Assembly (NCBI GenBank): GCA_015665315.1
Contig: JADFAK010000154.1
Span: forward strand, 1-46,496
Direction: 5' to 3'
DNA length: 46,496 nucleotides
Source: Flavobacteriales bacterium
GTDB lineage: Bacteria; Bacteroidota; Bacteroidia; Flavobacteriales_D; Sanyastnellaceae
Of this stretch, positions 1 to 3,149 are shown piece by piece. The notes under the pieces were generated by a model that was not told the DNA's origin, searched no databases, and saw nothing but the letters and a program-made list of their open reading frames with translations. Each line of letters starts with the position of its first letter. The first letter of the stretch is position 1. A program made the position numbers and the translations under genes.

Positions 1-336
1 ACAATCGTCCGTTCCAACAAATCGCCATAAGTTCCACCAACGACAAATCCCCTCTTATCTCTTCCTCTAAACACTTCCTCTTATCTCTTGAATTCAACTG
101 AGCAAGAAAAAAACCATATGGACGACTGCAACTCTCAAGACTCACGCTCCTACTCACACTGACCTTCAAGCCCTATCACAATCGTCCGTTCCAACAAATC
201 GCCATAAGTTCCACCAACGACAAATCCCCTCTTATCTCTTCCTCTAAACACTTCCTCTTATCTCTTGAATTCAACTAAGCAAGAAAAAATACCAAATGAA
301 CGACTGCAATTCTCAAGACTCGCACTCGTACTGACC
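1..336. repeat. Tandem direct repeat, period 177 bp
   Basis: Bases 1-166 recur at 178-336. The first ~98 bases are almost identical between copies; the rest differs by scattered substitutions and small indels. Inside each unit a shorter motif, CCTCTTATCTCTT, occurs twice. The first copy begins at the window edge, so the array may extend to the left. Short open frames inside it show no recognisable protein. The unit is too long, and lacks the spacer structure, for a CRISPR array. Origin unknown. Confidence 0.85.
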
Positions 337-589: not shown

Positions 590-1222
590 TCAATTGTAGT
601 TGAGCTGCGCCGTCGAGATGCCGACCTCATCACTTACCACCCCCATCCAATTCTGAAAAACTCCCTCCTCGTAAGCAAGGATAACCTTCGCATGAGTTTC
701 CCACAGCGGATCAAACTTCTCCAATGCCCCTATCATCTCCTCCAAATGTCCCTCCTCTTCCTTGATGATATTCCAAACTGAAACCGGACTGTCATGCTTC
801 TTCAAAATTTCATGGTAGACAGGATATAGATCATCTGCGCGGACTTCAATAGCGTACGTTACATATAGATACGCCACATATTTCAACTCCTCTCCAGCTA
901 GTCCCAACTTTTCCTGCAGGTACTTCGACGCAAAAATGTCCAATCGGTGCAAGTAATGCCTGCTCGTGTGCCCCGCTAATAATTCTTCCACTTCATAGGT
1001 CTCACAAGCTCCCTCTTGCACCCGATCAATCATCTTCTTGAGATAGTACGCATGACGGTGCTCCTCGGCGGCATGTTTGAGGACCATCAGATTGGTACGG
1101 GTCGGATGTTCGCATTTCGAGATCATTCGTGCGCCACAATTTTCCATGTAGGACAGGGTGTTGAGCCATTTGGCGTGGAGCGTGGGATCCGTGACGATGT
1201 GTTCTATGGTTGACTGTAACAT
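590..1222 (-). CDS. Ferritin-like di-iron protein at the end of the biotin operon
   Basis: A 210-residue soluble, helical protein with no signal peptide. The pattern fits a four-helix di-iron carboxylate fold: Glu27 in helix 1, Glu54-x-x-His57 in helix 2 (KHAAEEHRH), Glu126 in helix 3 (AIEVRADD) and Glu156-x-x-His159 in helix 4 (KEEEGHLEEM). That is the full 4 Glu/2 His ligand set of ferritin-like oxidases. It starts 18 bp after the bioA stop on the same strand, so it is probably the last gene of the biotin operon. Function unknown: inferred roles are an oxidative step in making the pimeloyl precursor, or iron/redox support of BioB. A ferritin-type storage role is less likely at this size and position. 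The di-iron call is fairly firm; the link to biotin rests on position only. Confidence 0.75.
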   Translation of the reverse strand: MLQSTIEHIVTDPTLHAKWLNTLSYMENCGARMISKCEHPTRTNLMVLKHAAEEHRHAYYLKKMIDRVQEGACETYEVEELLAGHTSRHYLHRLDIFASKYLQEKLGLAGEELKYVAYLYVTYAIEVRADDLYPVYHEILKKHDSPVSVWNIIKEEEGHLEEMIGALEKFDPLWETHAKVILAYEEGVFQNWMGVVSDEVGISTAQLNYN

Positions 1223-1240: not shown

Positions 1241-2572
1241 TTATTGCTCAATTTCTACGGTTGTTTTGAGCTTAAAATGATGCTCATATTCCAAACTCCC
1301 ACCAATAGCGGCGCAAAGTTTGGCAATGTCTTCCTCCTGCGCGATGTAGGGAGGCATTAAGTAAATAAGGTTCCTAAACGGACGAATCCAAACGCCCTTT
1401 TCAACGAAATATTTCTGGATTTCGGCTGTGTCAATGTCCTGCTTGCACTCAACTACGCCTATCGCTCCAAGTACGCGCACACCTTTCACATTTGCATTTA
1501 TTGCTAGGCTTTTAAATCCCGATTCTAACCAGGACTCGATGTTGCGCACTTGTTCTTTCCATGCCCCTGAAGCCAGTATGTCCAGACTGGCAATCGACAC
1601 CGCGCAGGCTAGCGGATTGGCCATAAAAGTGGGTCCGTGCATAAAGACTCCTGCCTCGCCAGCGCATACGGTTTCGGCGACTTTTGAGGTGCAAATCGTG
1701 GCCGCCATGGTCAACATTCCCCCTGTGAGCGCTTTTCCCACGCACATAATATCGGGCGATACATCGGCGTGATTGGCAGCGAATAATTCTCCTGTCCGAC
1801 CGAATCCCGTGGCGATTTCATCAAAGATCAACAGCACGTCATATCGATCGCACAATTCCCGAGCTTTTACCAAATATTCTGGGGAGTACATGCGCATTCC
1901 ACCGGCCCCTTGGACAATCGGTTCGAGAATAAATGCGGCAATTTCGTGGTGGTGATTCTTAAAAGTATTCTCGAGCTCGTCTTGTTCTGTTTGGTTCAAG
2001 CCTTCGGCAAATGATGATGTGGGCTCCTTCATGAAAACGTGCTGTGGTAGCATGGGGGCAAACAGGTGATGCATGCCGCCCTCCGGATCGCATACCGACA
2101 TAGCGCCAAAGGTATCGCCGTGATAGCCCTTCTTGATGGTGAGTAATTTGCCCTTCTCAGTCTTCCCCAACGAATGCCAGTACTGAAAAGTCATCTTCAA
2201 AGCCACTTCAACCGAAATCGAACCGCTGTCGCACAGAAAAACTTTCTCCAAACCAACAGGTGTCATATCAACCAGTCGCTTGCACAATTCAATAGCAGGC
2301 TCATGCGTGATTCCGCCGAACATAACGTGCGACATCTTACTGATTTGCGCTTGCAGGGCCGCGTTGAGAGTAGGGTGGTTGTAGCCGTGAATAGCACACC
2401 ACCACGAACTCATGCCGTCGATCAATTCCCGACCGTCGTCTAGTTTCAACTTCACGCCATTGGCCGATTCAACAGCATATACCGGCATCGGATTCGTGAG
2501 CGAGGTGTAGGGATGCCAAATATGCTCCCGATCAAATTTCTTTTGCGAGTCGCTCAGCATGGGCTTTGACAT
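1241..2572 (-). CDS. bioA: Adenosylmethionine-8-amino-7-oxononanoate aminotransferase (BioA)
   Basis: Class III PLP-dependent aminotransferase that converts 8-amino-7-oxononanoate (KAPA) to 7,8-diaminopelargonate (DAPA) using S-adenosylmethionine as amino donor. Length 443 residues is normal for the family. Visible signatures: N-terminal DREHIWHPYTS, the BioA-typical SSWWCAIHGYNHP, the PLP-site DEIATGFGRTGE, and the Schiff-base lysine in CVGKALTGGML. The start at 2572 overlaps the end of bioD by 41 bp; an ATG four codons later (2560) is an alternative. Third-to-last step of biotin synthesis, cytoplasmic; cotranscribed with bioB, bioF and bioD. Confidence 0.97.
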   Translation of the reverse strand: MSKPMLSDSQKKFDREHIWHPYTSLTNPMPVYAVESANGVKLKLDDGRELIDGMSSWWCAIHGYNHPTLNAALQAQISKMSHVMFGGITHEPAIELCKRLVDMTPVGLEKVFLCDSGSISVEVALKMTFQYWHSLGKTEKGKLLTIKKGYHGDTFGAMSVCDPEGGMHHLFAPMLPQHVFMKEPTSSFAEGLNQTEQDELENTFKNHHHEIAAFILEPIVQGAGGMRMYSPEYLVKARELCDRYDVLLIFDEIATGFGRTGELFAANHADVSPDIMCVGKALTGGMLTMAATICTSKVAETVCAGEAGVFMHGPTFMANPLACAVSIASLDILASGAWKEQVRNIESWLESGFKSLAINANVKGVRVLGAIGVVECKQDIDTAEIQKYFVEKGVWIRPFRNLIYLMPPYIAQEEDIAKLCAAIGGSLEYEHHFKLKTTVEIEQ

Positions 2573-3149
2573 TTAGGGGTGTGAGTGAATCGAGAAACGG
2601 GACAGTGAGGTATTTGCGCTTGTCGCTGAATTTTTCAATGGCCTCCCTGCTTGTTTTTACAGTTGTTCCACTGAAGATGATGGAGTGAATTTCGATGTTG
2701 TTGCGCTCCAGAATATCGATGCTGAGGAGGGTGTGGTTGATGCTGCCGAGGTAATAATTCGCGACGAGCACGACCGGACAATTCCACTGCTTGAGTAGGT
2801 CCAAATTGAGCTCCGTATCGTTCAAAGGAACCATGATCCCGCCCGCCAATTCGACGATGAGGTGGTTGTCGGTCTCGGGAAGTTTCAATGCTGATGCCTT
2901 TACCTCAATCCCGTCAATAGCCGCCGCAGCATGGGGAGAAAGTGGTTCTTTGAGTAAGTATCCTTCGTCGAAAAAGTGAGTTTTCTTGTTGCTGATTAAC
3001 GAGCGTACAGTCTCCTTGTCGCTATCCGTCTCGCTGCCCGATTGCACAGGTTTCCAGTAGTCGGCATGCAGTGCCTCGACCAAAATCGCGGAGATCACCG
3101 TCTTTCCCACTTCAGTGCCTATTCCGGCGACAACCAAGGTCTTTTTCAT
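2532..3149 (-). CDS. bioD: Dethiobiotin synthetase (BioD)
   Basis: ATP-dependent carboxylase that closes the ureido ring of DAPA to give dethiobiotin. The N-terminus MKKTLVVAGIGTEVGKT carries the BioD-type P-loop GxxTxxGKT, followed by the conserved YWKPVQSG and, in mid-protein, VELAGGIMVPL. The start at 3149 is chosen because it places the P-loop right at the N-terminus and gives an ATGA overlap with the bioF stop; a longer frame beginning upstream lies inside bioF and adds no conserved residues. About 205 residues, slightly short but in range. Confidence 0.95.
   Translation of the reverse strand: MKKTLVVAGIGTEVGKTVISAILVEALHADYWKPVQSGSETDSDKETVRSLISNKKTHFFDEGYLLKEPLSPHAAAAIDGIEVKASALKLPETDNHLIVELAGGIMVPLNDTELNLDLLKQWNCPVVLVANYYLGSINHTLLSIDILERNNIEIHSIIFSGTTVKTSREAIEKFSDKRKYLTVPFLDSLTPLNVKAHAERLAKEI

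Follow-up and report, generated by a model that had tools for sequence, protein, structure and literature searches.

A run of five biotin genes lies at one end of the window, by which we mean the whole stretch of 46,496 nucleotides analysed here (contig JADFAK010000154.1 from a Flavobacteriales bacterium). All five genes are read from the minus strand. Upstream are bioB, bioF, bioD and bioA, with overlapping ends, and the run closes with a gene for a ferritin-like protein, which we call bioE (Table 1). This reading frame begins with an ATG 18 bp behind the bioA stop and is open throughout. The close spacing and the shared strand were pointed out in a preliminary description of this DNA, and both are as stated there. 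In the case of bioF, TIGR00858 is the best NCBIfam family despite a score below the cut-off (the next family reaches 249 bits), and the bioD score was computed on a longer reading frame from 3209, of which the ATG listed in the table was chosen as the start. By their NCBIfam identities, none of the four enzymes upstream of bioE forms a pimeloyl group, again in keeping with the preliminary description.

Table 1. The biotin genes of the window, in order of position, with the evidence for each identity.
Gene	Product	Length	Position	Strand	Evidence
bioE	ferritin-like diiron oxygenase	210 aa	590..1222	(-)	ligands Glu27, Glu54, His57, Glu126, Glu156, His159; published BioE ligand numbering in PMC12915131
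bioA	adenosylmethionine-8-amino-7-oxononanoate transaminase	443 aa	1241..2572	(-)	NCBIfam TIGR00508, 606 bits, above the cut-off of 405
bioD	dethiobiotin synthase	205 aa from ATG at 3149	2532..3149	(-)	NCBIfam TIGR00347, 126 bits, above the cut-off of 83
bioF	8-amino-7-oxononanoate synthase	371 aa	3146..4261	(-)	NCBIfam TIGR00858, 349 bits, below the cut-off of 426
bioB	biotin synthase, first gene of the run	333 aa	4261..5262	(-)	NCBIfam TIGR00433, 391 bits, above the cut-off of 225

The window is a complete contig and extends only 589 bp downstream of bioE. That bioE is the last gene of the operon is true as far as the contig reaches, that is, over these 589 bp, which hold no open reading frame of 80 or more amino acids. 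A terminator-like site at 681-666 was rejected since it falls within the bioE coding region and is no better than chance. The contig end itself is repetitive. Direct repeats occupy window positions 1-335 and 428-562: 112 nt at 99% identity, spaced 177 bp, run on into 51 nt at 84%, and two exact copies of 25 nt are 110 bp apart. These repeats may account for the contig break.

Fold and family of the ferritin-like protein

Searches of the window protein against family models returned little. Pfam gave no family and no match at E values up to 1 (cytochrome P450 domain included), and the best NCBIfam match had an E value of 0.14. No relative was found on the viral contigs searched, and the plasmids searched gave no match.

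The AlphaFold2 model of the protein has a pLDDT of 94.9 and a pTM of 0.90. Foldseek alone returned no PDB hit with an E value of 0.001 or lower. When its candidates were re-aligned by structure, the aldehyde-deformylating oxygenase (cADO) came first (Z 15.6, 2.7 Å over 174 residues) and the tRNA hydroxylase MiaE next (Z 15.1, 2.6 Å over 170 residues). Between helical bundles, Z values of about 13 can arise without kinship, so both scores are only modestly above that level. The structural search suggested in the preliminary description thus places the predicted fold nearest to cADO and MiaE, which are the closest solved folds to the model.

Taken at face value, these neighbours could mean that the protein stores iron, hydroxylates tRNA in the manner of MiaE or deformylates aldehydes, and that it sits in the operon by accident. 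We regard this as extremely improbable. A sequence search of the PDB detects no relationship to cADO or MiaE, whose substrates differ (its best match has an E value of 1), whereas identities to BioE-type proteins run from 43 to 62%; moreover, the linkage to bio genes recurs across several gene orders.

Residues shared with characterized BioE proteins

BioE has been described as a ferritin-like diiron oxygenase that cuts the C7-C8 bond of long-chain acyl-ACP or acyl-CoA to give a pimeloyl thioester (Zhang et al. 2025, PMC12915131); the same paper credits its discovery to Xu et al., PNAS 2025. Two proteins serve as references, EmBioE of Elizabethkingia meningoseptica and CpBioE of Chlamydia psittaci. 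As reported in PMC12915131, BioE forms pimeloyl-ACP and rescues an E. coli delta-bioH strain, CpBioE holds approximately 2 Fe and is given a preference for acyl-ACP only, and mutation of each diiron ligand leads to loss of function. The BioE site is compared there with that of cADO.

The preliminary description had read a complete set of four Glu and two His ligands in the 210-residue protein, and reading the gene codon by codon recovers all six. Placed by the published numbering at a constant offset, with no alignment to either reference sequence, the EmBioE ligands 26, 53, 56, 125, 155 and 158 fall on window residues 27, 54, 57, 126, 156 and 159 (+1 throughout), and the CpBioE ligands 41, 68, 71, 140, 170 and 173 fall on the same six (-14 throughout) (PMC12915131). 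The pattern Glu, Glu-x2-His, Glu, Glu-x2-His is invariant in all 101 aligned sequences, counting that of the window. Chance does not explain the ligand set: homologues at 43-62% tblastn identity keep the same residues.

The likeness extends beyond the metal site. Of the ten hydrophobic acyl-pocket residues of CpBioE that can be placed by the constant offset (the eleventh, L205, was left out), nine are identical in the window protein (PMC12915131); L40 corresponds to Met26, and Met stands at this position in 99 of the 101 sequences. All four inhibitor contacts of EmBioE (L22, Y117, I124 and L131) are identical as well, and in Elizabethkingia, as in the window, the gene is clustered with bio genes (PMC12915131). 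On the other hand, only three of the seven residues of the proposed EmBioE CoA patch are identical (R31, R87 and H91, which are Arg32, Arg88 and His92 of the window protein), and four differ: F24 is Tyr25, K32 is Met33, K46 is Val47 and Q88 is His89 (PMC12915131).

Over 195-208 of its 210 residues, the window protein is 56-61% identical to homologues from Chryseobacterium (Weeksellaceae), a genus that PMC12915131 names as one of two with an identified BioE. These values lie above the search threshold for BioE used in that paper (>40% identity over >85% of the length), which is defined there against EmBioE. Judged by its sequence, the window protein is very likely a new member of the BioE family, set apart by a gene order without the repressor BioL and by one unusual residue.

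The preliminary description had gone further and suggested that a di-iron oxidase cleaving an acyl chain would be a new solution to the pimeloyl step. The functional half of this suggestion very likely stands, given the exact match of six ligands to BioE, but the novelty does not: the diiron route to the pimeloyl group was published in 2025 (PMC12915131).

Linkage to biotin genes and distribution

Homologues were collected as a 20-locus set and an 80-locus set, which give 101 loci together with the window. At least one genome (that of L032 and L069) occurs in both sets. Scattered homologues with no link to bio genes had been named in the preliminary description as evidence against a role in biotin synthesis. 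What we find is linkage: bioE lies alongside bio genes in 16 of 20 loci and away from them in four, and a bio gene is found no more than 300 bp from it in 70 of 80 loci. The latter are the best 80 of at least 511 relatives from a genome scan with a 21-row alignment, and they are rich in Chryseobacterium and therefore not independent. The other ten of these best 80 are all from Pedobacter, with no bio gene in the fetched stretch.

In a sample of 395 genomes of the class, bioE was found in 20 and bioB in 213. bioB is present in 19 of the 20 bioE genomes and in 194 of the 375 others (Fisher p = 9e-5, uncorrected for relatedness). The one bioE-like genome without bioB (G272) is 96% complete. A further match, in G120, was discarded as not being a homologue, which lowered the count from 21 to 20; it showed 25% identity over 76 residues and internal stops.

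The distribution of bioE is patchy. The one same-genus relative that was searched has neither bioB nor bioE, and among 24 relatives of the same family bioB occurs in seven and bioE in one. In the tree, this single case (L031) is placed apart from the window. Since only one of the seven bioB-positive family members has bioE, another pimeloyl route probably exists in the family.

Two distant homologues from a single genus deserve separate mention, L049:3958-4581 (+) and L050:9354-9983 (+). They are 43-45% identical to the window protein and keep all six ligands. Both lie directly after an FAA-hydrolase gene and before a gene for 174-175 amino acids, with no bioA, bioF, bioD or bioB in the fetched stretch. 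G272, the genome of one of them, lacks bioB; in G086, the genome of the other, bioB lies on another contig with no bioA, bioD or bioF beside it. These homologues may act on another substrate.

Gene order, the repressor BioL and Met33

BioL is a MocR-type repressor, with a GntR and an aminotransferase domain. We surveyed gene order over the 101 loci, in stretches mostly of 14-17 kb. Where the order is bioE-F-D-B-A, a divergent BioL is found in 53 of 55 loci; it is also found in 10/10 loci of the E-B order and in the single locus of the E-F order. In the order of the window, bioB-F-D-A-E, BioL is within reach in none of nine loci, the window included. The remaining 26 loci, in which bioE stands alone, by bioA or by an inverted bioF, have no BioL in the fetched stretch. 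As a positive control, the domain search confirmed both domains in six BioL proteins encoded beside bioE (494-507 aa).

The window itself has no MocR-family BioL, and in the whole assembly the only GntR match over the cut-off is a protein of 213 aa, too short for a MocR. The window locus therefore differs from the Elizabethkingia system (PMC12915131) in having no BioL beside bioE or recognizable in the genome. It also differs in that bioE comes last, whereas it comes first in the related loci of Chryseobacterium (E-F-D-B-A). BioL is not required for membership of the BioE family, because Chlamydia is described in PMC12915131 as lacking it, a trait that CpBioE and the window thus have in common.

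In a tree of 54 rows, the window groups with two uncultured Bacteroidota of the same bioBFDAE order (support 99/99), and this trio joins the group that holds the BioL-type loci (99/94 for both together). On this tree, three changes are needed to account for the bioBFDAE order, and well-supported branches force two of these.

Two features of the protein itself are peculiar to the window copy. Met33 is found in no other sequence of the alignment: the other 100 of the 101 have Lys, which corresponds to K32 of EmBioE and to K47, a patch residue of CpBioE. Residue 33 falls in the proposed docking patch for the acyl carrier or CoA (PMC12915131), and that paper reports that single substitutions in this patch of CpBioE abolished rescue. 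The pair Trp150-Asn151 is likewise unique among the 101 sequences, where Lys/Arg-Ser is usual (position 150 is Lys in 88 of the other sequences, Arg in nine and Tyr in three). The Met33 codon, ATG, is one base away from AAG, so an assembly error is possible.

It is tempting to join the missing repressor to the altered patch. That is, bioBFDA-bioE could represent a repressor-free BioE pathway outside Chlamydia with an enzyme that has become choosier about its carrier (restricted to acyl-ACP, or docking more weakly because of Met33), so that no BioL would be needed. We hold this to be a tentative reading with perhaps a modest chance of being correct. The other eight bioBFDAE proteins keep Lys33, so there is no general link between Met33 and a missing BioL, which weighs against it.

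Other routes to the pimeloyl group

The preliminary description had named bioC plus bioH elsewhere in the genome, with a mutant still prototrophic for biotin, as evidence against its reading. The searches run here covered BioC, BioW, cytochrome P450 and BioG. In the host assembly, which is 99% complete, no BioC passes the curated cut-off (best 65 bits against 185; 26 weak methyltransferase matches), and neither BioW nor a cytochrome P450 is found by searches whose positive controls worked. BioG gave no match in a search whose control was equally silent. The absence of a P450 match also separates the host genome from the BioI system of Bacillus subtilis: BioI is a P450, and thus a haem enzyme, that forms pimeloyl-ACP by oxidative cleavage of acyl-ACP (PMC12915131), the same job that we propose for the window protein.

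Across the class, BioC is not informative about bioE. None of the 20 bioE genomes has a BioC over the cut-off, in a search that scored up to six candidates per genome, and this says little because only six of the 395 genomes pass the cut-off. For this reason, we do not use the absence of BioC as evidence that the two exclude each other. Matches below the threshold (83-93 bits) occur in seven of the 20. Moreover, 188 of the 213 bioB genomes have neither BioE nor BioC over the cut-off, so, as far as these models see, most of the class must solve the step without bioE.

In relatives without BioE, bio genes were placed in 20 loci and neighbours were listed in seven, with 11 neighbouring reading frames compared with NCBIfam and/or Pfam. 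Over this set, no alternative pimeloyl gene emerged as general. A 230-aa candidate in L143 was set aside since it looks, by eye, like a secreted or outer-membrane protein. In one such relative (G030), the bio operon contains, between bioA and bioB, a gene for a FabF-like ketoacyl synthase of divergent sequence (L141:8728-9870, minus strand). It has no tblastn relative in the other 119 loci and possibly marks a different pimeloyl route.

These results bear on a second explanation of the window gene, namely that it encodes a BioE homologue whose activity is lost or weakened by Met33 and Trp150, with pimelate made by another route or biotin or its intermediates taken up. Both residues are unique, the lysine usual at 33 sits in the proposed docking patch (PMC12915131), and BioE is rare among the bioB-positive members of the family. 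Even so, we consider this explanation very improbable: the protein keeps the six ligands and nine of the ten pocket residues that can be placed, its reading frame is uninterrupted and starts 18 bp behind bioA, and the searches for BioC, BioW and P450 revealed no other recognizable pimeloyl gene in the genome.

Proposed role and implications

We conclude with high confidence that the window gene is bioE and that its product would supply the pimeloyl group to the operon that it ends. Our analysis shows the gene, its ligands, its operon, its homology and its predicted fold, whereas what the protein does, on which substrate and with what need for oxygen, we infer from its published relatives. By analogy with them, a hydrophobic channel of BioE would take up, tail-first, a long-chain acyl thioester (acyl-ACP, possibly acyl-CoA). 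The 4-Glu/2-His diiron site would then activate O2, with electrons coming from a donor outside the five-gene run, and the C7-C8 bond would be cut, which would release a shortened fatty acid together with pimeloyl-ACP. The pimeloyl thioester would be consumed by BioF, which, with BioA, BioD and BioB, would build biotin.

Biotin synthesis varies at the pimeloyl step, for which a diiron solution has been in print only since 2025. The preliminary description came to the same answer from one raw sequence, down to the exact ligand set, and thus provides a good and independent test of assigning the protein to BioE. In addition, no model in the Pfam and NCBIfam copies searched matches the window protein, so such genes may go unannotated. 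If the reading of a repressor-free pathway with narrowed carrier use were true, it would test the published idea that BioL serves to contain a promiscuous BioE (PMC12915131). Altogether, the BioL-free gene order and Met33 offer a natural comparison for why Elizabethkingia needs BioL, a question raised in PMC12915131.
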